Source: Paenibacillus sacheonensis (GTDB lineage: Bacteria > Bacillota > Bacilli > Paenibacillales > Paenibacillaceae). From it: DNA of 64,000 nucleotides. The stretch is from NCBI RefSeq assembly GCF_009909195.1, contig NZ_JAAAMU010000028.1:1-64000 (forward strand), in the 5' to 3' direction. The notes below the pieces were generated by a model. That model was not told the DNA's origin and searched no databases. It saw nothing but the letters and a program-made list of their open reading frames with translations. This document shows positions 14,491 to 30,542 of this stretch, one piece after another (the stretch's first letter is position 1; every line of letters begins with the position of its first letter). Made by a program: the position numbers and the translations under genes.

Positions 14491-16923
14491 TCATTTCTTT
14501 AACTTAGACTCGTAAACTTCTAATTTATCTCTCAATGCATGATCATCTTTTCCTTGCGCTTGCAGCGAATCCAAATAGATTCTCAGTGCTTGAGGTACAA
14601 ATTGTTCCTTAAGTTCATGAGTAGTTAACGGTTTGATCAGATTGATAGCATCCGCATATTTTTTCTGTTCGTAATCGATTTGACCGATTGCTAAACGAAT
14701 AAGAGGCGTCACACTGAAGTTTCTTCCTTGCAGCTGCTCTTTCGGCAAATCCTTCAAAAGATCAATGCCGTATAGGATTTTCTCATAGATTTCGCGCGCA
14801 TGATTCCATTTGGCCAAAGCATCAGAAGCATTCGAACGTTGTTGAAGATTGCCGGCTTGCGAATATTCCACGATGGCCCGCTCGTAGAAATCGATATCCC
14901 ACGGTCGGTTCTGAATGCCGGTATCGAGTATGGACAATGCCTTTTCCAATTCGCCTTGGTTTTTTTGGTAGGTAAAATCCGCTAGCAGTAAGTCGCGATT
15001 ATAAGGCTCCGATTTTCGGAGTTGATTAATCAACATGGCAATGTTTTGCTCGTAGCGAGCATCTTTAGTCTGGTTATAAGCTTGATTTAACCAATCGATT
15101 TTGCGAATCATGAATTCCGGATTGCTCGGCGAGTATCGAATGGCAGAATCGAGTCGCACCAATAGATCGCTTACTGAATGCTTCTTCTCCGAGGCAAGCG
15201 TCAACGCATTACGGTAATAACCGTCCGCCATGTAAGCACGGCAGGTGCCGACAAGCAATACGGCGGCAAGCAAGGCGATGCCTGTCGGAAATCCAATATT
15301 CCACAGTTTTCCGACGGCTTCGTCATTACTGATCTTAGCGGGAAGCGGGATATGGTTGCTGTAAACGGCTCCCATGAGCCCAAGCGAGACGAAGACGATG
15401 GCAGCCAGATAGATGTAGCTCATATCGAAGTCGATTGCGCTATGGACCAATAGAGAGACGGCGAGAATATAGAACACGAAGTGCGATTTGTCCCCGTCTT
15501 TATCTCGGATAAAACCTCTTATATATGTATAGAAGACGCAAATTAGAAATCCAATTAATACGACTAATCCCGTCCAACCTGTCTCTACCAATGTCTGCAA
15601 GTAATAGCTGTGCACCTGTTTGCTACTATATGGATTATGCTGATATTTCTCGTAGAGCGCGTTCCATCCGCCGCCGCCTGCTCCGAAGATCGGATAATCC
15701 GCGGAGATCTTCATCGCGTCCTTATAGAAGGTGGCGCGTTCAAGTACGCTGTGCTGGTTGAAGTTGATGTTCTCGAGCCGATCTGCGACTTCGCCCGGAA
15801 AAAGATGCCTTACGGCGCTGCTGCCCAATAGGAGGGCGGCGCCGGTGATCGTGACGATAATCAATGCTGCCGGAACGACGGCGTATGAGAGCTTCGTATT
15901 GGAAAAAGAAGCAAACTTCTTTTCAAGCCGTTCCTGCATCAAGTGATGCAGCAGGGATACGATTGAAGCTGTAACAAGGGCTGCGACGATAAGTATTGAC
16001 CAGCCTTCGAGCGGCAGTTTGGACCATAACGACATGAGGTCTGCTGGTCCGCCCTTCACTTTGGGAAGGACAGCCCGTGCGATGGCATTCATGGTGGAAG
16101 TCATTTTGCCCAAGATCGCAAATGAGACGATGATGGATAGACACGCATAGAGCAAAAACAAAAGCTGCTGTTTGAAACGCAGGAACGGCAGCACAAGAAG
16201 AATCAGTACCGGTACGATGACCAGGGCGCCTCGCGACAAGGTAAGCATGAACGATACCCAGATCGGGACAAGCATGAACGCGTGCAAGAATCGCCAGTAC
16301 GGACGTCGGACTTGTATGACAAGGTACAATCCCGCCAGGAATAATGCAGATAACAATGCCGCATAAGCATTCGGGTATTGGAATACCGACGAGACCCGGT
16401 AAACTTCCTGCTGATACCAAAGCGCATCCGGATAATAAATTTGTCCCATCATATTAGCAAGTCCATAGAACACAATTCCATAGCCAGAAAGGAGCATTCC
16501 GTATAGGAGAACGAGTCTAGCATTCAAGGAATCTCCGTAATAGAGCCCGAGTAAGAAGATGGCGGAGAACATGAATGAAACGAAAATCATGATATGCGAT
16601 TGATGGGCGGATGCGGCGCCGATGTTAGAAATCAAGTATGTAAGAGGCATTAGCCAGACAATTGCGGAAAGCAGCGACTTCCAGCTATTCAGCTTGGCCG
16701 TTTTAAAGAGATAGATGGTTCCTGCCAGCAGCAGGACGGTAAACGCGATTTCTGCACCCAATAAAGATCGCTCGTACGAGAATAAGTAACCCGTGAATAA
16801 GTATCTGCTGTTGTAGGGGTAGACGATTAACAGTAAAGTAATGATGGTTATGCCAGTCCATTTAATGAGAGATATGTCAGATTGCGGTTCAGTTGGGATT
16901 TCTTGAGAAGGCTTTTTTTTCAT
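14491..16923 (-). CDS. O-antigen ligase / polymerase-like membrane protein with TPR-like tail
   Basis: 810 residues from ATG 16923, nine bases after AGGAG. About a dozen hydrophobic segments lie in residues 20-590. The ligase signature region is around RVSSVFQYPNAYAALLSA and FGAGGGGWNALYEKYQHNPYSSKQVHSYYLQTLVETGW, which fits the Wzy_C / WaaL fold. From about 590 to the end the sequence is soluble and helical with TPR-like periodicity (PFYNRDLLLADFTYQKNQGELEKA-type segments). In Paenibacillus and Geobacillus S-layer glycan clusters a protein of this design (WsfB) is proposed to transfer the finished glycan to the S-layer protein outside the membrane. The neighbouring SLH gene and Wzm/Wzt genes fit this, but polymerase activity is an alternative. 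Confidence 0.82.
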   Translation of the reverse strand: MKKKPSQEIPTEPQSDISLIKWTGITIITLLLIVYPYNSRYLFTGYLFSYERSLLGAEIAFTVLLLAGTIYLFKTAKLNSWKSLLSAIVWLMPLTYLISNIGAASAHQSHIMIFVSFMFSAIFLLGLYYGDSLNARLVLLYGMLLSGYGIVFYGLANMMGQIYYPDALWYQQEVYRVSSVFQYPNAYAALLSALFLAGLYLVIQVRRPYWRFLHAFMLVPIWVSFMLTLSRGALVIVPVLILLVLPFLRFKQQLLFLLYACLSIIVSFAILGKMTSTMNAIARAVLPKVKGGPADLMSLWSKLPLEGWSILIVAALVTASIVSLLHHLMQERLEKKFASFSNTKLSYAVVPAALIIVTITGAALLLGSSAVRHLFPGEVADRLENINFNQHSVLERATFYKDAMKISADYPIFGAGGGGWNALYEKYQHNPYSSKQVHSYYLQTLVETGWTGLVVLIGFLICVFYTYIRGFIRDKDGDKSHFVFYILAVSLLVHSAIDFDMSYIYLAAIVFVSLGLMGAVYSNHIPLPAKISNDEAVGKLWNIGFPTGIALLAAVLLVGTCRAYMADGYYRNALTLASEKKHSVSDLLVRLDSAIRYSPSNPEFMIRKIDWLNQAYNQTKDARYEQNIAMLINQLRKSEPYNRDLLLADFTYQKNQGELEKALSILDTGIQNRPWDIDFYERAIVEYSQAGNLQQRSNASDALAKWNHAREIYEKILYGIDLLKDLPKEQLQGRNFSVTPLIRLAIGQIDYEQKKYADAINLIKPLTTHELKEQFVPQALRIYLDSLQAQGKDDHALRDKLEVYESKLKK

Positions 16924-17290
16924 TCCAATACTCCTAGCAACTTTTTCGGAAATGACAAGTATGTAATTGTGAGAATATATGATATTAAGTTTAACGTCAA
17001 ACAAACAAGAAAAGTTGCGGAAGAAATTATGTTTTATTTTACTCCAGATCTAATTCTCTATTTTTCGGCACGTTAGGAGCAAAAGTTAATTATAAATCAA
17101 TAGTTTTTTTATTTTAATGTTTGAGTGGAGCTTATACGAGGGATTTGTTATAATTACTGTTATTTCTGGGAAAGGAAAGTGGGAAGGCCGATTTAGAATG
17201 ATCTTTAAGTGCTACCATTTGGAGATTAATGAGGAATTTAACTGTCGAATTCATTGAATTGTTGGAATTCAGAGGTGGTTTGTTAAACTT
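16924..17290. other. AT-rich divergent intergenic region
   Basis: About 370 bp between the ligase gene (minus) and the exporter operon (plus). It marks the left edge of the AT-rich block. Apart from the extended -10 element at 17146-17154 and a leader of about 130 bases before wzm, I see no gene or clear repeat. Confidence 0.6.
17146..17154 (+). promoter_or_regulatory. Extended -10 promoter of the wzm-wzt operon
   Basis: TGTTATAAT gives TGn plus a consensus TATAAT; no good -35 at the right distance, as is common with extended -10 promoters. It would drive the eight-gene AT-rich operon. Confidence 0.55.
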
Positions 17291-18067
17291 ATGAAAACGC
17301 ATGTAAGCAACTTAGTGAAGTATAAAGATTTGTTTTTAGAGTTGATTATAAAAGATATTAAATTGAAATATAGAAACTCCTTATTAGGTGTTCTTTGGAG
17401 CATGTTGAATCCGCTCCTGATGATGGTAGTTCTAAGTATTGTGTTTATGGAATTTTTTAAAAATAACATTGCTAATTTCCCTGTCTATGTATTAACTGGG
17501 AGAATAGTCTATCAATACTTTGCCGATGCGACAAACTTTGCAATGGATTCGATTCATGCGAATGGTCAATTGATAAGAAAAGTATATGTTCCAAAATACT
17601 TTTTTCCGCTATCGCGCGTATTTTCCACTTTGTTTACTGCGGTTCTCTCTCTCGTTCCGCTAGCGTTAACAATGATGGTTACGGGCTTGTCTCTGAGGTG
17701 GATGAATCTCCTCGTTATTGTTCCTATTTTCTATTTACTAGTCATTACTGCAGGGATCGCACTGATACTTGCCGCCATCACGGTTTTCTTTAACGACTTG
17801 AAGCATATGTACTCTATTGTTCTAATGATCCTCATGTATATGACGCCGATATTTTACCCGATCAGCATTATTCCGGAAAAGTATTTAACCATAATCAAGT
17901 TGAATCCGATTTATCCAATCGTAGATATGTTTCGGGATGTATTGTTATACGGAACATTGCCTAGTCTGACTTTGCATCTCATTTGCGTGGGGTATATGGT
18001 CGTTTACGCAGGAGTAGGGCTGCTCGTGTTTTACAAGTCGCAGGATCGATTCATATATCACTTATAA
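17291..18067 (+). CDS. wzm: ABC-2 polysaccharide export permease
   Basis: 258 residues with six hydrophobic segments and the family signature KYRNSLLGVLWSMLNPLLMMVVL near the N-terminus, then YVPKYFFPLSRV and MTPIFYPISIIPE. This is the membrane half of the exporter that flips a lipid-linked glycan across the membrane. The following gene is its ATPase. The ribosome site (GAGGTGG) is rather far from the ATG (about 13 bases). First gene of an AT-rich operon that runs to 27.85 kb with only short gaps or overlaps. Confidence 0.92.
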   Translation: MKTHVSNLVKYKDLFLELIIKDIKLKYRNSLLGVLWSMLNPLLMMVVLSIVFMEFFKNNIANFPVYVLTGRIVYQYFADATNFAMDSIHANGQLIRKVYVPKYFFPLSRVFSTLFTAVLSLVPLALTMMVTGLSLRWMNLLVIVPIFYLLVITAGIALILAAITVFFNDLKHMYSIVLMILMYMTPIFYPISIIPEKYLTIIKLNPIYPIVDMFRDVLLYGTLPSLTLHLICVGYMVVYAGVGLLVFYKSQDRFIYHL

Positions 18068-18084
18068 AGTCGAGGTGTGAAACG

Positions 18085-18822
18085 GTGAATGATGATATTG
18101 CCATAGAAATATCGGACGTAACGATGAAATATCGCCTCATGACAGAAAAGATTGATTCGCTTAAAAACTTTTTCATCAAAAAAGTCAGGAACGAAATCAA
18201 ATACGAAGAATTCTTTGCCTTGAAGCAAGTTAACTTTTCGATAAGGAAGGGAGAGGTTTATGGAATCATCGGTATGAATGGTGCAGGCAAGAGTACCTTG
18301 TTGAAGATCATAGCGGGTGTTTTGAAGCCAACATCTGGTAGGGTGTTGAAGCGAGGCAGTGTAGCTCCATTGATTGAATTAGGCGCAGGTTTTAATGGGG
18401 AATTGTCGGGATATGAAAACATTTTTTTGAATGGCCTACTGATGGGATACTCGAAGAAATTTATTAAAAGCAAAATGGAGGAAATTATTGATTTCTCGGA
18501 ATTGGGAAAATTCATCCATACACCGTTAAAAAATTATTCCTCCGGCATGAGGGCCAGGCTTGGGTTCTCAATAGCGACAGTCGTTAAGCCTGATATCCTT
18601 ATTGTGGATGAGGTTTTGTCTGTAGGCGATTTCAAGTTTAAGGAGAAATCCGAAATGAAAATTCGTTCTATGATGAAGGAAGGTACGACAGTGCTATTCG
18701 TGTCGCATTCATTAGGGCAAGTAGAGAGTATTTGCGATAAGGTCATTTGGCTTGAAAGTGGGTTTGTTAAGGAAATAGGAGCTGCCAAAGAAATCATTGC
18801 TCATTTTAAACAGCACGCATGA
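18085..18822 (+). CDS. wzt: Polysaccharide exporter ATPase, short form without C-terminal glycan-binding domain
   Basis: 245-residue ABC ATPase from GTG 18085 (CGAGGTG upstream). Walker A GMNGAGKST, signature YSSGMRARLGFS, Walker B DILIVDEVLSVGD and the His switch VSHS are intact. It pairs with wzm 17 bp upstream. Wzt proteins that recognise a terminal glycan cap carry an extra C-terminal carbohydrate-binding domain of about 150-200 residues; here the protein ends right after the ATPase core (IIAHFKQHA). Export should therefore not need recognition of a chain-end cap by this subunit, similar to TagH/KpsT-type systems. Confidence 0.92.
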   Translation: MNDDIAIEISDVTMKYRLMTEKIDSLKNFFIKKVRNEIKYEEFFALKQVNFSIRKGEVYGIIGMNGAGKSTLLKIIAGVLKPTSGRVLKRGSVAPLIELGAGFNGELSGYENIFLNGLLMGYSKKFIKSKMEEIIDFSELGKFIHTPLKNYSSGMRARLGFSIATVVKPDILIVDEVLSVGDFKFKEKSEMKIRSMMKEGTTVLFVSHSLGQVESICDKVIWLESGFVKEIGAAKEIIAHFKQHA

Positions 18823-18864: not shown

Positions 18865-20907
18865 ATGGTATCCCTAAATGAAAATGATTTAAAAGATAAA
18901 ATAGTGTATTCAGAGATCGTTTCATTTGATGTTTTTGATACGCTGCTATTGCGGAATGTAATGCGACCTACCGATGTGTTCAAAGCCGTAGAACAAGAGA
19001 TTAATGAATATTCAGTGGAACCCGTGAATTTTTCTCGAATCCGTGTTGCTGCGGAAGAAAAGGCCAGAAGGGTTTCCGGTAGAGAAGAAATAACATTTGA
19101 GGAGATTTACGCTCAAATTGAATATGCAGTGGGCCGAATGAAAGCAAATGAATTTAAACAGCTTGAATTGAAGTTGGAGAGTCAATTTCTAATTGCTAAT
19201 CGAGATCTGATGGAAATTTTTAATTTTGCTCGTTCACTAAAAAAGAAGATTTATTTGATAAGCGATATGTATCTGGCCAGTCAAGATGTAAGCAGGTTTT
19301 TAATGGAGAATGGCTGCGAAGGTTACGATCAATTATTCATTTCTTCCGAATTAAATGTTACGAAAGCTAGCGGTTCAATGTATCAATATATAAGAGTGGC
19401 TGAAAAAATCAATTCGAATGAAAAGTGGATTCATATCGGTGACAACTATACATCCGACTATTTAAATGCCCGGAAAAATAACATCGAGGGGTATTACTAT
19501 AAAAAAATTAGCGAAAGAGAATCAATTCCCTCTGATAGAACGTTAGGAGAATCGATTATCAGTGCTATTCAATTAAATCATAAGTATACGAACAATGAAC
19601 AGGATTACTGGTATAAATTCGGTTCCGATATCGTTGCTCCGATATATATTGGGCTTATGAGGTGGATTGCAAAAAAAATCAAAGACCAGGACAATTTATA
19701 CTTCTTGGCTAGAGACGGTTTCATGCCGCATAAATTATATCAGATTATGAGAACCCATATAGCAGATCTTCCAGAGGGGAAATATTTATATGCTTCAAGA
19801 AGAGCCTACATATACCCACAACTAATCCATGCCGATGTTGACCATGCCATCGAAACGCTAATGCTTCACAATGAAGGGTTTAAGCAGAAACTAACATTAA
19901 TAGAAATCATTGAAAACGTCGGGCTTGAAGGCGAAAATTATCAGCGTCAACTCGGTCGATTTAACATTGGAACTCTTGACGAAGTAGTAAATGAAAAAAA
20001 TGCATTAAATATTAAAGCATTTCTAACTTCAATTTGGAGTGACATTCAAGAAGTCCTTGAAAAAGAATTAACGTTATTAGAGGCTTATTTAAAACAAAAC
20101 GATGTATATCAACAAAGTTCTATTAATATTTTTGACGTGGGATGGAGAGGATCGACGCATCTTGCTTTGCAAGATATAGTAGGAGGAACGGTAAAAGGAA
20201 TGTACTTTGGAACATTGGATAATATTTATTACAAAATAAAGGCCGATTCGTGTGGCTATGCCTTCAATGAAGGGGCGCCTTTTAAAAATAAAAAGATGAT
20301 CATGAAAAACGTGATGATGTATGAGTTTCTCTTCTCCTCTCCAGAAGGCTCGGTTTTTAACTTTACTTTTGATCATGACAATAAAGTGATTCCAGTATTG
20401 AATAATAGTGAACTTCAAACATCAACAAATGAAGCTACTCAACGCTTTCAACAAGGAGCAACCGATGTTTTTATCAAAAGCATGGCTTACTACAAGTTTA
20501 CGGAGGAAGTCGGCTCTGATTATGCTCTTAGCCGAATGCAAAAATTCATAAACGAACAAAATGCCTTAGATATGTTGCATTTCTCCAAACTATCAAATTC
20601 CGTCGGATTAGGAAAAGCCTTAGACGCTCAAAAATATGCTACCGAGGTTGACTTGATTGATTATTTAATGAATAGAAACATGCACAATGCCAGTGCAAAT
20701 TGTAACCTTTGGAAAATGGCTATCGTTATTAAAGATAGTCAAGGAAGGCATTTTAATAGGAATGAAATCGAGAAATTATATAATATCCGTTATGGAAATT
20801 TTAAAACAATAGTTAATCATTACGTTTCGGTCTTCAAAAAAGCTGTTCGTAACCCTCGTAAAACAATGAAACGCATGAGCATGATAATAAAAAAATTTTT
20901 TCGATAA
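18865..20907 (+). CDS. HAD-type large protein of surface glycan clusters (copy 1)
   Basis: 680 residues. The N-terminal third has HAD-fold motifs: I is SFDVFDTLL (D22), II is LISDMYLAS, and IV is HIGDNYTSDYLNARKNN. At the +2 position of motif I the usual acid/base Asp is Phe (D-V-F-D-T), so ordinary phosphatase chemistry is doubtful. The remaining two thirds form a conserved second domain with FLARDGFMPHKLYQ, LYASRRAYI and FDVGWRGSTH. It resembles the uncharacterised COG5610 family often found with glycosyltransferases. The following gene is a paralogue. Role in the glycan pathway unknown; a glycosyl- or phosphoglycosyl-transfer role for the second domain is only a guess. Confidence 0.75.
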   Translation: MVSLNENDLKDKIVYSEIVSFDVFDTLLLRNVMRPTDVFKAVEQEINEYSVEPVNFSRIRVAAEEKARRVSGREEITFEEIYAQIEYAVGRMKANEFKQLELKLESQFLIANRDLMEIFNFARSLKKKIYLISDMYLASQDVSRFLMENGCEGYDQLFISSELNVTKASGSMYQYIRVAEKINSNEKWIHIGDNYTSDYLNARKNNIEGYYYKKISERESIPSDRTLGESIISAIQLNHKYTNNEQDYWYKFGSDIVAPIYIGLMRWIAKKIKDQDNLYFLARDGFMPHKLYQIMRTHIADLPEGKYLYASRRAYIYPQLIHADVDHAIETLMLHNEGFKQKLTLIEIIENVGLEGENYQRQLGRFNIGTLDEVVNEKNALNIKAFLTSIWSDIQEVLEKELTLLEAYLKQNDVYQQSSINIFDVGWRGSTHLALQDIVGGTVKGMYFGTLDNIYYKIKADSCGYAFNEGAPFKNKKMIMKNVMMYEFLFSSPEGSVFNFTFDHDNKVIPVLNNSELQTSTNEATQRFQQGATDVFIKSMAYYKFTEEVGSDYALSRMQKFINEQNALDMLHFSKLSNSVGLGKALDAQKYATEVDLIDYLMNRNMHNASANCNLWKMAIVIKDSQGRHFNRNEIEKLYNIRYGNFKTIVNHYVSVFKKAVRNPRKTMKRMSMIIKKFFR

Positions 20908-20927
20908 CATTATAGGAGGATGGTCGT

Positions 20928-23039
20928 GTGGGAAGGCCGATAAAATCAGTTAAGGACAAATTATTTACCGCAATAGTCGAAAAAAACCCGAATATACTTA
21001 GAGATTATCAATTATATAAGTGGTCGCATATCTCAAAAAATGAGAATAAACTGAAGTCTTGGAATTATCTTTTGCTATTGAATATTAAATATCGGCTATT
21101 AAACATTCAAACCTCAACAGCCAATCAAACTAAGTCTGATTCGCAGAAACAAAAGAGGGCTCCCAAACCATATATGGGAGGAGCGGAATCTCGAATTAAT
21201 AAGAGGGAAGACGTGCAACATTTCGTAAAAAAACTAATGCATCATGATATTGTATCCTTTGATATCCTTGATACGCTTGTTTTGAGACCTTTTGCAGCAC
21301 CGACCGATATGTTTTATTTGCTAGAAGTCAAACACAATTATCTTAATTTTGCAAATATTCGAAAGCAGTCGGAGCAAGAAGCGCGTAAGATCAAATTCGA
21401 GCAATGCGGTACATACGAAATTACAATTGTCGATATCTATAACCAAGTTGCGTATCATACAGGTCTTGATCGTGACTATTGCATCAAGCTGGAGTTTGAA
21501 TTGGAGTTAGAAATGTGTACTTCAAACCCATACATGAAAGAAGTTTATGAAATTCTCAAAGCGAATCATAAAAGAATGATTGCGGTTTCGGATATGTATT
21601 TACCGAAAGGTTTAATGAAACAGATCCTAGAAAAATGCGGGTATAACGAACTTGAAGATGTTTTCATGTCTTGTGAGTTTGAGGCGAGTAAGAGGCATCA
21701 AGATTTATATGCAGTCGTGGATGAAGTACTTCAAAAAAATGGACCGAAGAGTGTCGTTCATGTTGGTGACAATTACGTATCCGATATTGAACAAGCCACT
21801 AAATTTGGATGGAATGCTGTATATTACCGAAACGTGAATGTAATTGGCAGCGAGTTTAGAACGATAAATATGTCTCGGATGGTTTCAAGTGGATATCGGG
21901 GAATAGTAAATGCGCATCTCCATAATGGAATAAAAAAGTATAGTCCGTACTATGAATATGGTTTCGTTTACGGCGGAATTCTTGCTTTAGGATTCTGTAC
22001 GTGGATTCATAGATATTGCAAAGAAAATGAAATCGATAAAATTTTATTTCTCTCCCGTGATGGAGATATTCTTCGGAAAATATATAACCTTCTTTATAAC
22101 GATGAAAATGCCGTTAACAATGAATACGTTCTTTGGTCAAGGAACCCTGGGAAAATCCTTACTTCGAATATTTCTCGTTTCGATTATTTCAGGCAATATA
22201 TTGATTATAAGGTTGGCAACGTCCAGACATTTATTATGGAAGATATTTTGGGAAGCATGGATATTGGATTTTTAAGCTCAAAATTAGAAGCGTTCGGTTT
22301 GAAAAAAGAAGATACACTGAACCTTGAAAATAAAGAGTCACTTAAAACGATGATTTTGGAAAATTGGAATCTCGTACAATCCCATTACGATAATAACAGG
22401 AAGGCAGCTAAACTGTATTTTGAGCCTATTTTAAAGGGCAGTAAACGGGCCGTGGCAGTTGATATCGGCTGGCAAGGAACAGGCGTCCTCGACTTGAAAA
22501 AAACAATCGAAAACGTATTGGGGTTTCCGTGTAAAGTGGACGGATTAATGATGGCTTATTCAAATAAGGACACTGAATATACAACTTCATTTTTTATGAA
22601 TAAAGACATTAATGTCTACTTGTGGTCCTCTCAACATAATAAGGAATTATTCTATAAACACCGCAAGAGGCCGCAAAATAATATTTTGATGGAGTTGTTC
22701 ACCACAGCTACGCATCCTTCGTTTAAGAACTTTAAATTAACTGATTCTGACTATGAATTTATATTTGATTCGCCGGAAGTCGAAAACTATCAGATTATTA
22801 AAGAGGTTCAGGAGGGTATGTTTGATTTTTCGAAGGCATACCTTAATTCCTTTAATAATCATGAAATGATGTTAAATATATCAGGATATGACGCATATGC
22901 TCCATTTACCCATATTACGGACGATTTGACTTTCTTGAAGAGGTTTTTTGGGAAATATTCCTTTAACCGCTTTATCGGCGGTGTCAGAGGGAACGAGTTT
23001 TATAACTTAGACGCTGTATTCAAGGAATTTAAGCTTTAA
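20928..23039 (+). CDS. HAD-type large protein of surface glycan clusters (copy 2)
   Basis: 703 residues from GTG 20928 (TAGGAGGA 7 bases upstream). A polar N-terminal extension of about 100 residues precedes the same architecture as the previous gene: motif I SFDILDTLVLR, motif II AVSDMYLPK, motif IV VHVGDNYVSDIEQA, then FLSRDGDILRKIYN, LWSRNPGK and VDIGWQGTG. The +2 residue of motif I is Leu, again without the usual catalytic Asp. Retention of RDG and GW-Q/R-G-S/T in both copies points to a working second domain. The two are diverged in detail, so they probably handle different substrates. Same AT-rich operon, 20-bp gap. Confidence 0.75.
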   Translation: MGRPIKSVKDKLFTAIVEKNPNILRDYQLYKWSHISKNENKLKSWNYLLLLNIKYRLLNIQTSTANQTKSDSQKQKRAPKPYMGGAESRINKREDVQHFVKKLMHHDIVSFDILDTLVLRPFAAPTDMFYLLEVKHNYLNFANIRKQSEQEARKIKFEQCGTYEITIVDIYNQVAYHTGLDRDYCIKLEFELELEMCTSNPYMKEVYEILKANHKRMIAVSDMYLPKGLMKQILEKCGYNELEDVFMSCEFEASKRHQDLYAVVDEVLQKNGPKSVVHVGDNYVSDIEQATKFGWNAVYYRNVNVIGSEFRTINMSRMVSSGYRGIVNAHLHNGIKKYSPYYEYGFVYGGILALGFCTWIHRYCKENEIDKILFLSRDGDILRKIYNLLYNDENAVNNEYVLWSRNPGKILTSNISRFDYFRQYIDYKVGNVQTFIMEDILGSMDIGFLSSKLEAFGLKKEDTLNLENKESLKTMILENWNLVQSHYDNNRKAAKLYFEPILKGSKRAVAVDIGWQGTGVLDLKKTIENVLGFPCKVDGLMMAYSNKDTEYTTSFFMNKDINVYLWSSQHNKELFYKHRKRPQNNILMELFTTATHPSFKNFKLTDSDYEFIFDSPEVENYQIIKEVQEGMFDFSKAYLNSFNNHEMMLNISGYDAYAPFTHITDDLTFLKRFFGKYSFNRFIGGVRGNEFYNLDAVFKEFKL

Positions 23040-23059
23040 GTAATTGATTGGAGGACGCT

Positions 23060-24766
23060 ATGGTTATTTATTCTGCAATAACTACTTACCACACCTTGTG
23101 CTGTATATTGCATAAATTGAAATCTAATGCTGATAAAGAGGCCGTTTTATATTTGTCGAATATTAATTACTATGCTACAAACCTGGAGAGTGGAATTAAG
23201 TTAAGCGGTATTTTCAAAGAAGTCATTTTATTCGATGATGCTTATATTTTAAAAGAGGCAAGTGCTCCTAAGCTGGAAGATGGAATAAAAAGGATTAAAG
23301 GTGCTGTGGAGAAATCGATCGAGGCGAATATGTGGGACTCGGAAATTTATATAGCGGGGGACCATTTCCCTTTTGGTCTCTATTGTATTAGCAATAATAT
23401 TGAATACAATTTCTTTGAAGATGGAGCAGGTATTTATACTCGATCTGAATTATTGTTTGATTCTGTAAAGAGCAGCAATGAACGATTGCATGAGTTGATG
23501 GTGCATTTAAAGGTAAACGGTAAAAACGAAAACGTCCAGATGAAGTACTTGAATAAAAACGCTCAAATTGATGCGCTACTAATCGCCGACCAAGAAAATG
23601 TGGTCGATTTCAACGCGGATGCGATTTTAACGAGCTTAAGCCATGCTGCCATTGAACAACTCATGATAATATTCAGCGCTAAAGAAATGAATATTACTGA
23701 TGCGCCGAAAGCGCTTATCTTGACGCAGCATTTTGCTAATTTAAATATGATGTCTCTTCGAGAACAAGAACATCTATATGCGCTGCTTGCCGATTATTTT
23801 ATCAGGGAAGGTAACGAAGTAATTATTAAACCGCATCCGTCAGATATTCAAGGCCGTTATAGTCAAGTCATCAGCGGATCCTATATAATACCCGGATATT
23901 TTCCTTCTGAATTAATACCGTATTGCGTGAAAAATAAATATGCCATAGGCGTTACGGTTTCCTCAACTGCAATTTTTAACTTAGATCAATCGATAGACGA
24001 TAAAATTGTATTTTCTAAGAAGACGGAAAAAGAATTTATTCATATGCATAGATACTATGCGGTATCTAGAATCGTTGAACTGTTGGATAGTGATGAAACA
24101 TGTATTCATACATTAGGTGCGGATGACACTCAACTCTTCAATTTTTTTAAAGTAAACGATGCGATTAACAATATAAATATTGTTTCTCACAATACCATAA
24201 GCGAGCTGGAGCTCCCCGAAAGAAAAGTAATCATTATCGATAAGGTCTCGAATAGTGAAAGAAAGCAGCATGAAACGGCAAATGAAATTAGTCGTTTTCT
24301 TCAATCTTTAACTGAAAATGATATTTCTATATTCATTAATTCAGAAGAAAACAATCTGTTTTACGATTACGGGTATGAAGATATCTTTAATAATATGGCT
24401 CATGTAATAATTCAAAAAGAACTCGTTAATGATGCATATAAAACTGATACAGAACCTGAAAACATTTTTGTATATTCCAAAAATAAAGGCTTCATGAATA
24501 AGCTATTGAATTTGAACGTAGAGCGCGAACTAAAAAACAATCAAACGAAAATCAGGATTAGCCTTGTACAGCCATTCGACTCTTCCGTGGAGGAAAAAAT
24601 CTCAAAAGGCATTTTAAAATCTACAATTGAACGGCTAAAACTTTATGCGACTCAAGACTCTGTAATTTTTGATGACCCAACCAAATTTATTGATCGTTTG
24701 ACATCGAAATCCATTAAAACGACGTTGCAAACGTTGGAGAGAAGACTGTTGTCTTATATCGAATAG
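23060..24766 (+). CDS. Sialyltransferase-like (polyST/GT52-type) glycosyltransferase
   Basis: 568 residues from ATG 23060, five bases after GGAGG. The middle of the protein has the two motifs of bacterial sialyltransferases of the polyST/GT52 type: an H-P motif in VIIKPHPSDIQGRYSQ and an S-S-S/T motif in GVTVSSTAIFNLD, with ILTQHFANLNMMSLREQE before them. Such enzymes use CMP-activated nonulosonic acids. The next gene is a CMP-sugar synthetase, which supports a CMP-sugar donor. The C-terminal 180 residues are not recognised. The assignment rests on motifs only; the acceptor and the exact sugar are unknown. Confidence 0.65.
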   Translation: MVIYSAITTYHTLCCILHKLKSNADKEAVLYLSNINYYATNLESGIKLSGIFKEVILFDDAYILKEASAPKLEDGIKRIKGAVEKSIEANMWDSEIYIAGDHFPFGLYCISNNIEYNFFEDGAGIYTRSELLFDSVKSSNERLHELMVHLKVNGKNENVQMKYLNKNAQIDALLIADQENVVDFNADAILTSLSHAAIEQLMIIFSAKEMNITDAPKALILTQHFANLNMMSLREQEHLYALLADYFIREGNEVIIKPHPSDIQGRYSQVISGSYIIPGYFPSELIPYCVKNKYAIGVTVSSTAIFNLDQSIDDKIVFSKKTEKEFIHMHRYYAVSRIVELLDSDETCIHTLGADDTQLFNFFKVNDAINNINIVSHNTISELELPERKVIIIDKVSNSERKQHETANEISRFLQSLTENDISIFINSEENNLFYDYGYEDIFNNMAHVIIQKELVNDAYKTDTEPENIFVYSKNKGFMNKLLNLNVERELKNNQTKIRISLVQPFDSSVEEKISKGILKSTIERLKLYATQDSVIFDDPTKFIDRLTSKSIKTTLQTLERRLLSYIE

Positions 24767-24792
24767 CTCGAAGACAATTTAAGGAGGATAAG

Positions 24793-25542
24793 ATGAAGAT
24801 TGTAGCTGTTATTCCTGCTCGTTATAACTCATCCCGGTTTCTTGCAAAACCGCTTGCTGATATCTTCGGCAAACCAATGATCTGGTGGGTCTATGAGCAA
24901 GTCAAGAAGGTAAATGAATTTAATGAAGTATACGTAGCAACGGACGATGACCGAATAGCAGAAATATGCACCAAGTATAACTTGAATTACATAATGACAT
25001 CCACTGCCCATGGGACAAGCACGGAACGCCTATTTGAAGTTGCACAATCGATAGGGGCAGACTATTATGTATGCATTAATGGCGACGAACCTTTAATTGA
25101 CCCGGAAATAATCAGGAGGATACTTCCGATTAATAAAACGGAGAACGAGATTTATGTTGCGAATCTTATGTCGGAAATAAAGAACCCGGTTGAAGCAGTT
25201 GATAGTACGAATATTAAAGTCGTTGTGAATTCTAAAGGCTATGCAATGTTTATGTCAAGAAGCCCTATACCATACCCTAAATCTAGTATGGACTTTTCAT
25301 ATAAAAAACATTTAGGTGTATTAGTATATAACTATCTTGCGCTTGAATTTTTTAATAACACGCAGCGGAATGCCGTTGAAAAAGTTGAAGATATTAACGA
25401 ACTGAGGTTCATTGAAAACGGAGAGAAAATCAAAATGATTGAAGTGGTTGCAGACACCCTTTCAGTTGATACCCCAAAAGACTTGGAGAAAGTAATTGCA
25501 ATAATTGAGGAGCGACTTCAAATAGGGGGAGGAAAACAATGA
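24793..25542 (+). CDS. CMP-ulosonate synthetase of the KdsB (CMP-Kdo synthetase) family
   Basis: 249 residues. The CTP-binding N-terminus is VIPARYNSSRFLAKPLADI with GKPMIWWVYEQ, followed by VATDDDRI, CINGDEPLIDPEII, FMSRSPIPYP and HLGVLVYN, the order seen in 3-deoxy-manno-octulosonate cytidylyltransferase. KdsB normally serves Gram-negative LPS core; in a Gram-positive S-layer cluster the substrate is more likely another 3-deoxy-ulosonic acid. It is flanked by a sialyltransferase-like gene and by an aldolase gene with which it overlaps by four bases (ATGA). I withhold the name kdsB because the substrate is not shown. Confidence 0.85.
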   Translation: MKIVAVIPARYNSSRFLAKPLADIFGKPMIWWVYEQVKKVNEFNEVYVATDDDRIAEICTKYNLNYIMTSTAHGTSTERLFEVAQSIGADYYVCINGDEPLIDPEIIRRILPINKTENEIYVANLMSEIKNPVEAVDSTNIKVVVNSKGYAMFMSRSPIPYPKSSMDFSYKKHLGVLVYNYLALEFFNNTQRNAVEKVEDINELRFIENGEKIKMIEVVADTLSVDTPKDLEKVIAIIEERLQIGGGKQ

Positions 25543-27134
25543 CGAACATAAAAATTTTGGACTGCACCTTGAGAGACGGAGGTTATATTAACGACTGGAA
25601 TTTCGGATATGACAATATTAAGAGCATGATCGCGCGACTTACTAAATCAAAAATCGATATTGTAGAGTGCGGATTTTTAGAAGACAGCAATTACAATAAA
25701 GAATGCAGCTTTTTTAGTAACGTCGATGAAATCAAGAAGATCTTACCCGAGGATAGTGGCGATGTGCAATATGTAGCCATGACGCGTTACGGATATTTAA
25801 ACATTGATCATTTGAAAGAATACGATGGCAAATCTATTAACGGAATTCGTGTGACCTTCCATGAGGAAGAAGCTGAGGAAGCAATTGAATACTGCAGGCA
25901 GATTCAAGAGAAAGGGTATAAAGTTTATGTTCAGCCAGTAGGGACGACCAGCTATACAGACAGTTTTTTATTAAAAATCATTGAAATTGTAAACAAAATA
26001 AAACCTTTTGCGTTCTATATAGTGGATACATTGGGGCTAATGAGAAAGAATGATTTGCTTCGAATGTTCTATTTGATTGACAATAACCTTCAAAAAGATA
26101 TAGTTGTAGGTTTTCATTCACATAATAACTTGCAGTTGTCGTTCTCAAACGCACAAGAGTTGGCTGATCTGCACACCAAAAGATCAATCATAATCGATTC
26201 ATCGGTCTATGGAATGGGGAGGGGCGCAGGCAACCTAAATACGGAGTTAATCGCGCAGCATTTGAATTCCGTTAAAGATAAAGATTATAGTGCAGACTAC
26301 TTGCTTGAGATCATCGATGATACGATTAATCCGATTTTGGAAAAGCATTCATGGGGTTATTCGGTACCATATTATCTAGCGGCAATTAATAACTGCCACC
26401 CTAACTATGCAACGTATTTAATGAACAGAAAAACGCTGCAAGTTAAGGCAATCAGTAATATTTTAAATACCATTACCCTGGATAAAAGGGAATTATACGA
26501 TGAGAAATATATTCTTGAACTGTATTCTCTTTATCAAAAGCACAACATTGACGATCACAATGATCTTGAGGCGTTATCAGAGGAGTTTAAAGGAAAGAGG
26601 GTATTGGTTCTTGCGCCGGGAGCCAGCATAAGAGAACAGTACGAAGAGATCAAACAGTATTTGACTTTCAACGAAGTGAAAATTATTTCGGTTAATTTTA
26701 GTGGCGATGAAATAAAACCTGATTTTTATTTCTTTAGCAATGACAAAAGATTTCAAAAATCTAAAGAATCGTTGGTAGATAAAGAAAATCGGGCGATAAT
26801 AAGCTCAAATGTAGAAGGCAATACCGAATACTATAAATATAAAATCAATTATAGCGACTACTTGAATTCTCAACCGCTAGTTAATGATAATGCAACCTTA
26901 ATGTTGTTTGCGCTCTTAATAAAACTAAAAGTAAAACAGATTGATATAGCAGGATTCGACGGGTTTATCTATAACGCGAATGATAATTACGCGATTGAAA
27001 CACTTGAAACGCATTTGGAGGAAAGTGTCGTGCTGGAATTAAATGCTCAAATCGCTAATGTCGTACGTGACTTCGAACAAAAAGTGCGATTGAACTTTAT
27101 TACGGACTCCTTGTATAACCCCGTACTGGTTTAA
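25539..27134 (+). CDS. HMGL-type aldolase fused to a Rossmann-like C-terminal domain
   Basis: 531 residues. Residues about 1-300 are a DRE-TIM (HMG-CoA-lyase-like) barrel: ILDCTLRDGGYINDW supplies the metal-binding Asp and catalytic Arg, and GFHSHNNLQLS the H-x-H metal pair; YGMGRGAGNLNTE is typical of 4-hydroxy-2-oxovalerate aldolase relatives. These enzymes make or break the bond between a pyruvate-type enolate and an aldehyde or acyl group. Residues about 345-531 are a second domain (RVLVLAPGASIREQ ... SVNFSGDEIKPDFYFFSND ... KVKQIDIAGFDGF) that looks Rossmann-like and recalls GT42/DUF115 proteins; this is a weak resemblance. In context the barrel could form a keto-acid sugar for the CMP synthetase upstream. 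Confidence 0.78.
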   Translation: MTNIKILDCTLRDGGYINDWNFGYDNIKSMIARLTKSKIDIVECGFLEDSNYNKECSFFSNVDEIKKILPEDSGDVQYVAMTRYGYLNIDHLKEYDGKSINGIRVTFHEEEAEEAIEYCRQIQEKGYKVYVQPVGTTSYTDSFLLKIIEIVNKIKPFAFYIVDTLGLMRKNDLLRMFYLIDNNLQKDIVVGFHSHNNLQLSFSNAQELADLHTKRSIIIDSSVYGMGRGAGNLNTELIAQHLNSVKDKDYSADYLLEIIDDTINPILEKHSWGYSVPYYLAAINNCHPNYATYLMNRKTLQVKAISNILNTITLDKRELYDEKYILELYSLYQKHNIDDHNDLEALSEEFKGKRVLVLAPGASIREQYEEIKQYLTFNEVKIISVNFSGDEIKPDFYFFSNDKRFQKSKESLVDKENRAIISSNVEGNTEYYKYKINYSDYLNSQPLVNDNATLMLFALLIKLKVKQIDIAGFDGFIYNANDNYAIETLETHLEESVVLELNAQIANVVRDFEQKVRLNFITDSLYNPVLV

Positions 27135-27158
27135 ACAATGCGCACCAATGGAGTGGAA

Positions 27159-27854
27159 ATGTTGAGAACTGAAAGCATTCGAGCGTTGTTGAATGAAATA
27201 TGCGATTTACTCACGGATAATCTCGAATTAATAGAAGAAACGCGTTATGAGATTAAGATAAAGCCTGATGGGACGCCAGTTACGAATTCGGATGTGCTTA
27301 TTGAAAGGCTTGTAAGGGAACATATTTCAAAGGTCATTCCCGATGCCGTCTTTATTGGTGAAGAGTCATACGATTCATCTTCTGTCGACTTAAAAGGTTA
27401 TTTGGTATTATTGGATCCCATCGATGGAACCGAAAATTTTTGTTCCGGGTTGAAAGAATGGGGTATTTCTTTCGGACTCTGGCAGGGAGAGAATCACCTG
27501 GGGAGTTTATTGTTCCTACCGGAAATGGGAATAAAATTAATGACTGGCGACGAGATTCACCCCGTGCGTTCTAGAATTATCGGCGTGTCATCTTCAATGT
27601 CGGATACCTTAATTAATAGTCTCCGAGAACCTGGAGAATTCAGGATTATGGGATGTGCCGTTTATAATCTTTATAATGTAATTCGAGGATCATTTCGGAG
27701 ATTTAAAAATCCCAAGGGTGCTTACATCTGGGATATACTCCCGGGCGTGATGCTTGCTCTCGAACATGGTTGTCAGGTAATGATAAATGATGAAGTGTTC
27801 TCTGGTAAGTTCTTGGATCCAAGAGAGTTATATCGAGTAGATATTACACGTTGA
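27159..27854 (+). CDS. Inositol-monophosphatase-like phosphatase of the glycan operon
   Basis: 231 residues from ATG 27159, five bases after GGAG; an in-frame ATG at 27138 has no ribosome site. Metal and phosphate motifs of the IMPase superfamily are present: GEES (residues about 68-71), LLDPIDGTENF, and a C-terminal WDILPG for the conserved W-D. It differs from the general suhB product at 52 kb and is shorter. In the operon it directly follows the aldolase, so it may remove a phosphate from the keto-acid sugar, the task KdsC has in Kdo synthesis. That role is inference. Last gene of the AT-rich operon. Confidence 0.8.
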   Translation: MLRTESIRALLNEICDLLTDNLELIEETRYEIKIKPDGTPVTNSDVLIERLVREHISKVIPDAVFIGEESYDSSSVDLKGYLVLLDPIDGTENFCSGLKEWGISFGLWQGENHLGSLLFLPEMGIKLMTGDEIHPVRSRIIGVSSSMSDTLINSLREPGEFRIMGCAVYNLYNVIRGSFRRFKNPKGAYIWDILPGVMLALEHGCQVMINDEVFSGKFLDPRELYRVDITR

Positions 27855-28100: not shown

Positions 28101-29039
28101 GTGAAATCAGCCCCGACAGCCAGCGTATGCATTGTCACTTATAACAGCGAATCAGACATAGCCGCTTGCCTGGAGGCCGTGTTATCGCTCTCTTATCCGC
28201 TCGAGCGAATCGTCATCGTGGACAATGCTTCCTCCGACAACAGCTGCGGCGTCGTGCGCCGCTTTCTGGACAACGTTCATTTGGTCGAAAATAAAGCAAA
28301 CGTCGGCTTCGCCCAAGGGCAGAACCAGGCCATCGCGCTCACGTCGACGGATTACGTGCTGACACTGAATCCGGATGTCAGGCTGGATCCGAACTATCTT
28401 GGGAAGCTAATCGAAGTCATGGAAAGCGATCGGCGCATCGGCAGCGCTACCGGCCAGCTGGTGCTGGGCAGCGATCCGAACATTATCGATAGCACCGGTA
28501 TCGTGATGGGGAAGACAAGAAGGGTGTGGGACCGCGGCGGCGGCGATCCCTCGTCGAAATGGCAGGAATCAGGTGAATTATTCGGCGTGTCGGCGGCGGC
28601 AGCCGTCTATGCGAGAAGAATGATCGACGATATCAAGTTGGACGGACAGTTTTTCGACGAGACGTATTTTGCGTACAAGGAAGACGTGGATGTCGCTTGG
28701 CGGGCCAAGCTGCTGGGGTGGAAGGCGTATTATGCCGCCGAAGCCAAAGCGTCTCATGGTCGCGGATGGAAATACGAGGGCAGAAAGAGCCGCAAATCGG
28801 TTCCTCTGTTTATCCGCAGGCACTCCTACCAGAATCGTATTTTTACGATTATCAAAAATGAACCCGCGAATTGGACGCTGCTTCTGACGATTCCCAGACT
28901 GCTAGGCTTGGAGCTGCTCCAAGTCGGTTATATGCTCGTATTCGAACCGGGGTTGTTGAAGTGCTGGCTTACGATCGCAAGAGCGTTGCCAAGGTTACTG
29001 GGTCAAAGAAAATCGATTCAACGGCGCGTTTTCCGTTAA
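28101..29039 (+). CDS. GT2 glycosyltransferase, rhamnosyltransferase-like
   Basis: 312 residues with a GT-A fold: SVCIVTYNSESDIAACLEAV, IVIVDNASSDNS, the D-x-D-like LTLNPDVRLDP, and a C-terminal acceptor region with FDETYFAYKEDVDVAWRAKLLG. This last pattern (E-D-V-D) is typical of WbbL-type rhamnosyltransferases. dTDP-rhamnose from rfbC-B-D is the likely donor. Cytoplasmic, with a hydrophobic C-terminal stretch that may touch the membrane. Base composition is back to the GC-rich type, unlike the operon just upstream. Confidence 0.85.
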   Translation: MKSAPTASVCIVTYNSESDIAACLEAVLSLSYPLERIVIVDNASSDNSCGVVRRFLDNVHLVENKANVGFAQGQNQAIALTSTDYVLTLNPDVRLDPNYLGKLIEVMESDRRIGSATGQLVLGSDPNIIDSTGIVMGKTRRVWDRGGGDPSSKWQESGELFGVSAAAAVYARRMIDDIKLDGQFFDETYFAYKEDVDVAWRAKLLGWKAYYAAEAKASHGRGWKYEGRKSRKSVPLFIRRHSYQNRIFTIIKNEPANWTLLLTIPRLLGLELLQVGYMLVFEPGLLKCWLTIARALPRLLGQRKSIQRRVFR

Positions 29040-29095: not shown

Positions 29096-29135
29096 GCAAA
29101 TAGAATCGCCAAAATAAGTGATTGGGAGTGATGCT

Positions 29136-30542
29136 ATGATCCGACAAAACCAGCGTTTCTTGACTCAAATCTATGTGTTTGCGGATTTATTGTGCACACT
29201 CCTTACCTTTCTAGTAGCTTATTGGTTGAAGTTCAAAAGCGAATTTCTTCCGCATGAGCCTACGCTGCCCTTCAGAACGTATCTCATGTGGGCGACGGTC
29301 TACTCGTTGGCCGCTGTCTTGATCGGCTTCTACGTCCGCTTCTATGCACCTAGACGTCGGAAGAGCGTATCCTACGAAACCATGAAAATCATCCAGGTAC
29401 AGGGACTAAGCTTCCTAGGTTTGCTAAGCCTGCTCTATATCGTCAAGGAAGTTCACATTTCCCGCGAGTTTCTAGCACTCTACTTGGTCGCGAACATCAT
29501 ATGCTTATGCATCTATCGGTCCTCTGTGAAATTTGTCCTGTCCCGCTTCAGGCGAAGAGGGTTCAACAAACGTTACATACTCATCTTGGGAGCGGGCTCT
29601 TTGGGTCGCAGTTTTCATGACAGCATCGCGCAGCATCCGGGTCTTGGCTATGACGTCTTCGGCTATCTGGACGATTATCAGACCGAACATGACGACGAGC
29701 ATAGGCAGCATAAACCGATTCTCGGCAAAATCGACGATCTGGATACGATCTTAACGCGGCATACGATCGACGAGGTCATCATCGCCCTCCCGCTGAAAGC
29801 CTATAAGAAATATGCGTTCATCATCGACAAATGCGAACGCGCCGGCGTTAAAACGCTCATTATTCCGGATTTCTTCGACGTCCTTCCCGCCAGGCCGTTT
29901 TTTGATAACTTCGCCGGCATTCCGCTCATTAACGTGAGAGATGTTCCGCTGGACGAACTTAGCAACCAAATTCTCAAACGGGTGTTCGACATCGCCTTCT
30001 CCTTGATTATGATCATCCTGACTTCGCCGGTGATGCTGCTTGCCTGCGTCGGGACCAAGCTCACGTCTCCCGGACCGGTGATCTTCAAACAAGAGCGGGT
30101 TGGGTTGGATCGACGGAATTTCAATATGTACAAGTTCCGTTCGATGCACGTCTTCAACCAGACGGTAGCCGATACGCAGTGGACGGTGGAGAATGATCCC
30201 CGCAGAACTCGGTTCGGCACGTTTTTGCGGAAAACGAGCATTGACGAACTTCCGCAATTTTTCAACGTGCTGGCAGGCCATATGAGCGTAGTCGGCCCTC
30301 GGCCGGAACGTCCTTTCTTCGTGGAGCAATTTAAAGAAGATATTCCGAAATACATGGTCAAGCATCATATTCGTCCGGGAATCACCGGCTGGGCGCAGAC
30401 GAACGGTCTCCGCGGGGACACGTCGATCGAAGAGCGAATCGTGCATGATCTCTTCTATATCGAGAATTGGACGTTCTTCTTCGACCTCCGAATTATCGTG
30501 CGAACGGTAACGAAAGGTTTGCTGAATAAAAATGCCTATTAA
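29136..30542 (+). CDS. Undecaprenyl-phosphate sugar phosphotransferase (WsfP/WbaP type)
   Basis: 468 residues from ATG 29136 (GGGAGTG upstream). N-terminal membrane segments (IYVFADLLCTLLTFLVAYWL and three more) are followed by a nucleotide-binding-like region (RYILILGAGSLGRSF) and a C-terminal catalytic domain: KRVFDIAFSLIMIILTSPVM, SPGPVIFKQERVG, YKFRSM, TSIDELPQ, VGPRPERP and RPGITGWAQ. It transfers a sugar phosphate (often galactose or glucose type) to undecaprenyl phosphate and so starts glycan assembly. In Paenibacillus alvei and Geobacillus the homologue WsfP starts the S-layer glycan. Overlaps the next gene by 11 bases. Confidence 0.92.
   Translation: MIRQNQRFLTQIYVFADLLCTLLTFLVAYWLKFKSEFLPHEPTLPFRTYLMWATVYSLAAVLIGFYVRFYAPRRRKSVSYETMKIIQVQGLSFLGLLSLLYIVKEVHISREFLALYLVANIICLCIYRSSVKFVLSRFRRRGFNKRYILILGAGSLGRSFHDSIAQHPGLGYDVFGYLDDYQTEHDDEHRQHKPILGKIDDLDTILTRHTIDEVIIALPLKAYKKYAFIIDKCERAGVKTLIIPDFFDVLPARPFFDNFAGIPLINVRDVPLDELSNQILKRVFDIAFSLIMIILTSPVMLLACVGTKLTSPGPVIFKQERVGLDRRNFNMYKFRSMHVFNQTVADTQWTVENDPRRTRFGTFLRKTSIDELPQFFNVLAGHMSVVGPRPERPFFVEQFKEDIPKYMVKHHIRPGITGWAQTNGLRGDTSIEERIVHDLFYIENWTFFFDLRIIVRTVTKGLLNKNAY

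Follow-up and report, generated by a model that had tools for sequence, protein, structure and literature searches.

A candidate aldolase-based route to a CMP-activated ulosonic acid in an S-layer-type glycan locus of Paenibacillus sacheonensis

To our knowledge, every de novo pathway described for CMP-activated ulosonic acids (Kdo, sialic, legionaminic and pseudaminic acid) uses a PEP-condensing synthase: KdsA in the Kdo pathway, alongside KdsC and KdsB, and NeuB in the sialic and nonulosonic acid pathways, alongside NeuA. Here we describe a four-gene operon in a 64,000-nucleotide stretch of the P. sacheonensis genome (contig NZ_JAAAMU010000028.1, positions 1 to 64,000; the whole stretch is called the window below). 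The operon resembles the Kdo pathway in its KdsB-family CTP activation, its phosphatase gene and its proposed ulosonate logic, and some of its relatives even have a KdsC-type phosphatase; it differs in having a DmpG-like aldolase and no KdsA, a KdsB that lacks the signature of KdsA-linked enzymes, and an IMPase (HAD_2 in relatives) where the Kdo pathway has KdsC. A polysialyltransferase-like transferase, and a NeuA-like partner in 27 of 55 linked loci, recall the sialic acid pathway; in this host, however, the aldolase takes the place of NeuB, which the genome lacks. The genes of the locus are as follows.

12783..14309, - strand: SLH-domain surface protein (domain match)
14491..17004, - strand: O-antigen ligase-domain (Wzy_C) protein, possible glycan ligase (domain match)
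17291..18067, + strand: ABC-2 type transporter (Wzm-like), probable glycan export (domain match)
18082..18822, + strand: ABC transporter ATPase (Wzt-like; domain match)
18865..20907, + strand: second large HAD-domain protein (domain match)
20928..23039, + strand: large HAD-domain protein upstream of the operon (domain match; genes for related proteins also neighbour the aldolase elsewhere)
23048..24766, + strand: PF07388 alpha-2,8-polysialyltransferase-like glycosyltransferase (PF07388 match; TTG start, with an ATG at 23063)
24793..25542, + strand: KdsB-type cytidylyltransferase of the aldolase-linked clade (PF02348, NF009905 and TIGR00466 matches; clade tree)
25539..27134, + strand: DmpG-like (HMGL / DRE-TIM) aldolase, proposed pyruvate-dependent ulosonate(-phosphate) synthase (PF00682, fold, residues)
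26544..27131, + strand: aldolase C-terminal domain, putative MptE / Maf / sialyltransferase-like fold (structure and profile comparisons)
27138..27854, + strand: IMPase-family phosphatase, proposed ulosonate-phosphate phosphatase (PF00459; LDPIDGT; a relative in the same slot of locus L006)
28101..29039, + strand: GT2 glycosyltransferase (domain match)
29118..30542, + strand: WbaP/WsaP-like sugar-phosphate transferase (PF02397; domain match)

Judged by its genes, this is an S-layer-type glycan locus: the Wzm/Wzt pair, the WbaP-like initiator, the O-antigen ligase-domain protein and the SLH protein that it shares with the S-layer glycan (slg) clusters of Geobacillus and Paenibacillus alvei are all present. 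Wzm/Wzt and the WbaP-like initiator of slg clusters are described in the 2010 review PMC2943079. Two rhamnose-pathway-like genes near the operon are another likeness to these clusters. The CMP-sugar genes, in contrast, set the locus apart, and a text search of PMC2943079 finds none of the terms 'CMP', 'sialic' and 'ulosonic'. The four operon genes lie consecutively on the + strand between 23048 and 27854, separated by 26 bases, then overlapping by 4 bases, then 3 bases apart; the tight packing reported in an earlier note on this DNA is borne out, and profile matches place the genes in the families it had named.

We consider it likely that the product of this operon is a CMP-activated 3-deoxy-2-ulosonic acid other than Kdo, built by means of a pyruvate aldolase and then transferred to a glycan. 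The metal-dependent HMGL aldolase would join pyruvate to a sugar-phosphate aldehyde to give an ulosonate phosphate, replacing the PEP-using KdsA or NeuB; the IMPase-like enzyme would then strip the phosphate, and the KdsB-like enzyme would use CTP to activate the anomeric hydroxyl of the ulosonate. The polysialyltransferase-like enzyme would add the activated sugar to the glycan as it grows, and export by the ABC transporter would bring the glycan to the surface, probably onto the S-layer protein. The substrate, the direction of the aldolase and the order of the steps are what we infer from the genes. For comparison, we used 80 aldolase loci with fetched flanks, and 50 genomes that contain such loci.

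The cytidylyltransferase matches PF02348 with 158.9 bits (cut-off 22.6) and exceeds two curated KdsB cut-offs (NF009905, 264 against 255; TIGR00466, 158.6 against 155.2) but not two others (NF003950, 202.3 of 234; NF003948, 153.9 of 281), in agreement with its earlier naming as a KdsB-type CMP-sugar synthetase. Its CTP-loop and metal residues (R10, R15, K19, D98 and D226) are intact and invariant in all 33 aldolase-linked and all 34 KdsA-linked KdsBs; PMC3149649 gives the roles of R10, R15 and K19 in KdsB. The aldolase-linked enzymes nonetheless form a separate clade, and the split from the KdsA-linked ones is supported at 99 SH-aLRT. Six positions, chosen post hoc with the aid of presumed contacts to Kdo (96/173/175/177/202/203 in the window enzyme), read QHGYEQ in 34/34 KdsA-linked KdsBs and in 13/13 other KdsB copies from 12 genomes. 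The window enzyme does not keep this signature and reads NHGLNE (N96, H173, G175, L177, N202, E203), and Gln203 is found in none of the 33 aldolase-linked enzymes. In five genomes with both kinds of KdsB, the signature occurs only in the copy that is not linked to the aldolase.

Could the sugar be ordinary Kdo or a nonulosonic acid, supplied by a KdsA or NeuB that is encoded at another locus, with the aldolase unrelated? This would be conceivable in the 22 of 50 related genomes that have KdsA or NeuB somewhere, while the other 28 have neither. Scans of the window's genome with PF03102 and with PF00793 hit the same single gene, a 353-aa AroF-type DAHP synthase, and PF02348 finds the window KdsB and two partial matches (30.2 and 21.8 bits), so that there is one good KdsB. 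On these scans we reject a canonical Kdo or NeuB supply here; they extend to the genome, as far as it is assembled, the earlier statement that no KdsA or NeuB homologue is present; the complete pathway elsewhere that would have spoken against the proposal was not found. As the window KdsB also lies outside the KdsA-linked clade and misses its signature, this explanation is largely refuted for this genome, and we regard it as extremely improbable.

The linkage of aldolase and cytidylyltransferase recurs. In 55 of the 80 loci a cytidylyltransferase lies on the same strand within 1.5 kb of the aldolase (28 KdsB-type, 27 NeuA-like); 54 of the 63 cytidylyltransferase genes in these loci are directly upstream of it, 14 of the 54 with a 4-base overlap, and no KdsA or NeuB is seen in the fetched flanks of any of the 80 loci. 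The partner appears to be exchangeable: the aldolase domains of the window and of locus L006 are 75% identical, yet their cytidylyltransferases are of different types, and on the aldolase tree the KdsB label changes 15 times, at least eight of these forced by supported branches, although the mean for shuffled labels is higher (23.6). The remaining 25 loci have no same-strand cytidylyltransferase within 1.5 kb. For 19 of them the whole fetched stretch contains none, and these 19 include every one of the 13 loci in which a TPP enzyme lies near the aldolase. The link to CMP chemistry therefore does not hold throughout the family. Aldolase loci also come from Bacteroidales, Akkermansia, Melainabacteria and Fusobacterium, and the restriction to Gram-positive S-layer glycans that the earlier note had assumed does not hold. 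In the open-licence literature, we found nothing on the pairing of aldolase and cytidylyltransferase or on a role of the aldolase in such a pathway.

The aldolase matches PF00682 (HMGL-like) with 71.3 bits (cut-off 29) over residues 4-244. In sequence and fold it is closest to the pyruvate aldolases 3dxi and DmpG, and its GRGAGN motif resembles the GAGAGN of DmpG; Claisen-type synthases have GERxGN. For 3dxi (BVU_2661, Bacteroides vulgatus), the title says only that it is the N-terminal domain of a putative aldolase, with no function given. Identification as IPMS or citramalate synthase was rejected, these models scoring below those for DmpG. Nor is the protein a typical 4-hydroxy-2-oxovalerate aldolase (DmpG/BphI; 1nvm, 4lrs): it stays far under the DmpG cut-offs (TIGR03217, 73.2 of 286; NF006049, 85 of 229), has a different C-terminal domain, and none of the operon genes scanned encodes an acylating dehydrogenase. 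The metal site (Arg-Asp and His-x-His; R12, D13, H193, H195) is intact in the window and in 76/76 aldolases. The His that follows RDG in DmpG, which we take to be the catalytic base, is replaced by Tyr16 (Tyr in 73 and Phe in 3 of the 76). The catalytic residues, whose loss would count against the pathway, are thus kept as far as metal binding is concerned, but not at this His.

PF00682 also includes Claisen-type synthases, which match the aldolase weakly, and since the aldolase-linked KdsBs lack the KdsA-linked signature, their substrate is not fixed by it. The substrate of the aldolase might then be a different keto acid or a CoA thioester, in which case the acid activated by the cytidylyltransferase would not be a 3-deoxy-ulosonate. 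We find this unlikely in view of the closeness to 3dxi and DmpG, the GRGAGN motif, and the KdsC-type phosphatases and KDG-kinase-type genes beside some relatives, which point to 3-deoxy-ulosonates. A phosphonate route, which a PEP mutase would suggest, was also rejected: the sole strong gene of that family in the genome is a methylisocitrate lyase (484 bits over 353). The E. coli K3 capsule contains a 4-deoxy-2-hexulosonic acid, according to a title cited in PMC10433991; we rejected a link to this sugar, as a text search of that paper finds neither 'aldolase' nor 'kdsB', and the aldol product of pyruvate would be 3-deoxy, not 4-deoxy.

The C-terminal part of the aldolase had been called a Rossmann-like domain fused to an HMGL aldolase; the aldolase stands, while the domain is better named MptE-like. 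It scores 20.8 of 34.6 against PF01973 (MptE-like), below the curated cut-off, and comparing its profile with MptE-like proteins that stand alone yields a probability of 78% (E 1.8e-5, one comparison). HPPK of M. jannaschii and SteA lead the best 50 Foldseek matches listed, among which there is neither Maf nor a sialyltransferase, and the same two appear when solved chains are searched by profile (E 0.012 and 0.086, respectively). The likeness to Maf and to sialyltransferase (CstII, GT42) comes only from VIA-align re-comparison; GT42 proteins occur in 1/50 genomes. That the domain makes the aldolase bifunctional, binding or transferring the CMP-sugar of the same operon, seems improbable to us.

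The IMPase-like phosphatase is confirmed by 73.2 bits against PF00459 (Inositol_P; cut-off 27) and by an intact DPxDGT metal motif, LDPIDGT (aligned to 2q74). IMPase is a local choice, and HAD phosphatases are commoner: within 1.5 kb of the aldolase the 80 loci have HAD_2 in 38, KdsC-type in 8 (the two scanned pass TIGR01670) and IMPase in one (L006). Of the aldolase-KdsB-IMPase triplet suggested earlier as a search target, the pairing with a cytidylyltransferase recurs; the IMPase fills its slot in one locus besides the window. In 26 of the 55 cytidylyltransferase loci, some on short contigs, no phosphatase of the three families lies within 1.5 kb. A PfkB kinase adjoins the aldolase in four loci (L018, L026, L027 and L134); such a kinase is the opposite of a phosphatase and counts against the proposed pathway. 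The one scanned, from L018, belongs with the 2-keto-3-deoxygluconate kinases.

KDG-type kinases beside some copies, and the catabolic part that DmpG-type enzymes play in the breakdown of aromatic compounds, would also fit an aldolase that cleaves, recycling or degrading an ulosonate supplied otherwise. We hold this to be quite unlikely, as the host genome has no KdsA or NeuB, and the close partners of the aldolase are glycan genes and a cytidylyltransferase, which is a biosynthetic enzyme.

The first enzyme of the operon matches PF07388 (A-2_8-polyST) with 45.8 bits (cut-off 23.3), and is probably the transferase of the CMP-activated sugar; no relative with a solved structure was found. It contains the HPSD and SST motifs on which its description as sialyltransferase-like had relied (residues 263 and 305, numbered from the TTG start), but in an alignment of 39 family members, the window's included, only the H and P of HPSD (39/39) and the second Ser of SST (38/39) are conserved, the other letters being variable.

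Synthesis by the aldolase, removal of the phosphate and CMP-dependent transfer, the logic of the earlier note, thus survives comparative genomics (pairing, phosphatases, absence of KdsA and NeuB, KdsB clade), while the chemistry stays inferred. The aldolase family is large and already catalogued (one search scored 7,998 candidates, of which 7,948 passed). Searches of plasmids gave 44 records, none covering 80% of the query, and those of phages gave 2, with only partial or DmpG-like proteins among the matches listed (25 for plasmids). With somewhat more confidence than doubt, we suggest a third general route to CMP-ulosonic acids, in which a metal-dependent DmpG-like pyruvate aldolase with a putative sialyltransferase-fold domain at its C-terminus works with interchangeable KdsB- or NeuA-type partners and phosphatases across Bacillota, Bacteroidota, Verrucomicrobiota, Fusobacteriota and Melainabacteria, towards products as yet undescribed. 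If true, this would assign a function to a large aldolase family named only by domain, would mean that these KdsB-like genes are wrongly annotated as CMP-Kdo synthetases, and would predict new acidic sugars on many bacteria.

Gene calls together with family profiles bear out the presence of four consecutive genes, as the earlier note described:

23048-24766, + strand, gene 1, PF07388 enzyme
24793-25542, + strand, gene 2, KdsB-type cytidylyltransferase
25539-27134, + strand, gene 3, PF00682 aldolase with a second domain
27138-27854, + strand, gene 4, IMPase-like phosphatase

The genes are spaced by 26 bases, then a 4-base overlap, then 3 bases; promoter- and terminator-like sites showed no excess over chance level. 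Of the HPSD and SST motifs of the gene 1 product, HP is invariant across all 39 of 39 PF07388 family members compared and 38 of 39 have the central Ser of SST; the remaining letters vary. The gene 3 product combines a PF00682 TIM barrel with a second domain that weakly matches the Pfam MptE-like family (20.8 bits, cut-off 34.6). Several of the compared glycan loci also encode free-standing MptE-like proteins (L010:7007-7882 and relatives), which are possible distant relatives of this C-terminal domain. The surroundings of the operon comprise:

upstream, Wzm- and Wzt-like ABC transporter genes (profile match)
upstream, 18865-23039, two large HAD-domain proteins (profile match)
downstream, GT2 (profile match)
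downstream, WbaP/WsaP-like initiator (profile match)
nearby, O-antigen ligase-domain protein, SLH-domain protein and two rhamnose-pathway-like genes

This gene content resembles that of the S-layer glycan clusters described in PMC2943079.

The aldolase loci compared are the best 80 of at least 582 confirmed places in a scan of genome contigs, a sample therefore biased towards close kin. With all ORFs and profile models, a same-strand cytidylyltransferase lies within 1.5 kb in 55 of these best 80 of at least 582 loci, being of KdsB type in 28 and of NeuA type in 27; 54 of the 63 cytidylyltransferase genes in these linked loci are directly upstream of the aldolase (14 of the 54 with a 4-base overlap) and none is directly downstream. 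Using non-overlapping gene calls, 75 of the same best 80 have a clean aldolase gene, directly preceded by a cytidylyltransferase in 51. On the aldolase-domain tree, the KdsB label changes 15 times, fewer than the shuffled mean of 23.6, so that the label is partly inherited; at least 8 changes are forced by supported branches. The partner type differs even between close aldolases: in Paenibacillus sp. HB172176 (L006), whose aldolase domain is 75% identical to that of the window and whose gene content is similar, the partner is NeuA-type, not KdsB-type as in the window. That distant partners with the same chemistry were swapped repeatedly suggests cytidylylation to be what the pairing conserves.

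Not all aldolases of this kind are paired. No cytidylyltransferase lies within 1.5 kb in 25 of the best 80 of at least 582 loci, 19 of which have none anywhere in the fetched stretch; an acetolactate-synthase-like TPP enzyme is near the aldolase in 13 of the 80, all within those 19. One aldolase subgroup (L053, L054, L062, L069, L071, L073, L075, L080, L083-L085) has a HAD phosphatase and such a TPP enzyme nearby, and no cytidylyltransferase was found in its fetched stretches. Related aldolases probably feed other routes too. An aldolase-only paralogue of ~325 aa, lacking the C-terminal domain, occurs in the window genome (C4:11180-12049, L116) and in L119-L121, L123 and L124; the six copies form their own branch on the aldolase-domain tree (support 100), and no KdsB-like gene was seen near them in the stretches read. 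Of 147 genomes from the family, 138 have a match to the aldolase profile; the best match spans the barrel only, except in the window genome, G127 and G144.

The absence of a KdsA or NeuB homologue now extends to the whole window genome (7.4 Mb, 99.93% complete), in which a profile search found neither, the sole gene in both families being an AroF-type DAHP synthase; a KdsA/NeuB pathway elsewhere feeding the window KdsB, named beforehand as one of the results that would refute the proposal, was not found there. The window copy is also the only convincing KdsB in this genome, beside two partial PF02348 matches at 30.2 and 21.8 bits. Neither synthase (>60 bits) occurs in the fetched flanks of any of the best 80 of at least 582 loci. 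We further searched 50 genomes, out of 51 candidates, calling NeuB at >100 bits and KdsA above its cut-off and counting weaker matches as DAHP synthases. Strong NeuB was present in 14 and KdsA in 11, with both in three; 28 have neither. Many of the genomes are metagenome assemblies that may be incomplete, so that absence is weaker there. Neither synthase was found in 17 of 24 genomes with a KdsB-type partner vs 11 of 26 with a NeuA-type partner.

Could the KdsB partner nonetheless be an ordinary CMP-Kdo synthetase? Surveying 398 genomes of the window's phylum (places >115 bits), we found 42 KdsB places besides the window's; among the 40 fetched with flanks, 34 carry KdsA, one (L134) the aldolase and 5 neither gene, and none has both. 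A tree of 72 KdsBs, built by a quick method with the KdsA-linked set drawn from one phylum, separates 33 aldolase-linked copies and L135 from 34 KdsA-linked copies and 4 others (99% SH-aLRT). The CTP-loop and metal residues are identical between the two groups. At positions 96, 173, 175, 177, 202 and 203 (window numbering), which presumably line the Kdo site, all 34 KdsA-linked copies have Q, H, G, Y, E and Q; the 33 aldolase-linked copies retain Q96 in 8, H173 in 10, G175 in 25, Y177 in 9, E202 in 9 and Q203 in 0, and the window KdsB has N, H, G, L, N and E. To compare copies inside single genomes, we searched 12 (11 have KdsA; G156 has NeuB only) for KdsB as a control and obtained 18 places >120 bits, 5 of them aldolase-linked copies already in the tree. 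All six letters occur in the 13 other copies, two of which (L190, L191) are divergent elsewhere; the aldolase-linked copies in five of these genomes have not kept the full set. The aldolase-linked partner is probably not a CMP-Kdo synthetase. In L135:582-3711 (- strand), a KdsB of the aldolase-linked clade adjoins a transketolase-like gene and one for an FkbH-domain protein; no aldolase was found in this 7.7-kb contig, whose gene set may represent a different route to the acid.

Phosphatases recur beside the aldolase. Within 1.5 kb, HAD_2 is found in 38 and KdsC-type in 8 of the best 80 of at least 582 loci, and an IMPase, besides the window's, in one (L006); the first two are members of one superfamily (HAD), with IMPase outside it. 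Two KdsC-type proteins scanned scored 133.4 and 123.7 bits, above the KdsC subfamily cut-off of 106.95. At least one of the three types is present in 29 of the 55 cytidylyltransferase loci from these best 80. The two HAD proteins upstream of the window operon are 680-700 aa long, with the HAD domain N-terminal and the remainder unassigned. Relatives are found repeatedly at aldolase loci, and the gene immediately downstream of the aldolase encodes one in L011, L021 and L035, where it might supply the phosphatase. A PfkB kinase takes the place of the phosphatase in L018, L026, L027 and L134, two being located directly beside the aldolase as follows:

L018:11590-12612, PfkB kinase
L134 from 334, PfkB kinase

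Against a KDPG aldolase/sugar kinase fusion model, the L018 kinase scores 552 bits over the kinase half (the cut-off of 700 applies to the full fusion); its score with a KDG/KDGal kinase model is 236.6 bits (cut-off 440). It is of the 2-keto-3-deoxygluconate kinase kind, which points to 2-keto-3-deoxy acids; the kinase neighbours do not, however, indicate that phosphate flows in the direction expected from the phosphatases.

We found no account of the cytidylyltransferase-aldolase pairing in searches of open-licence papers; an earlier description elsewhere is possible. The pathway logic of the earlier note is supported by the linkage, the phosphatases, the synthase absence and the KdsB clade. 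From the genes, we consider it fairly likely that the window operon encodes a route to a CMP-activated ulosonic acid made by the aldolase, with sugar chain lengths from C6 to C9 all compatible. The confinement of this route to Gram-positive S-layer glycans does not hold, as it would reach well beyond them.
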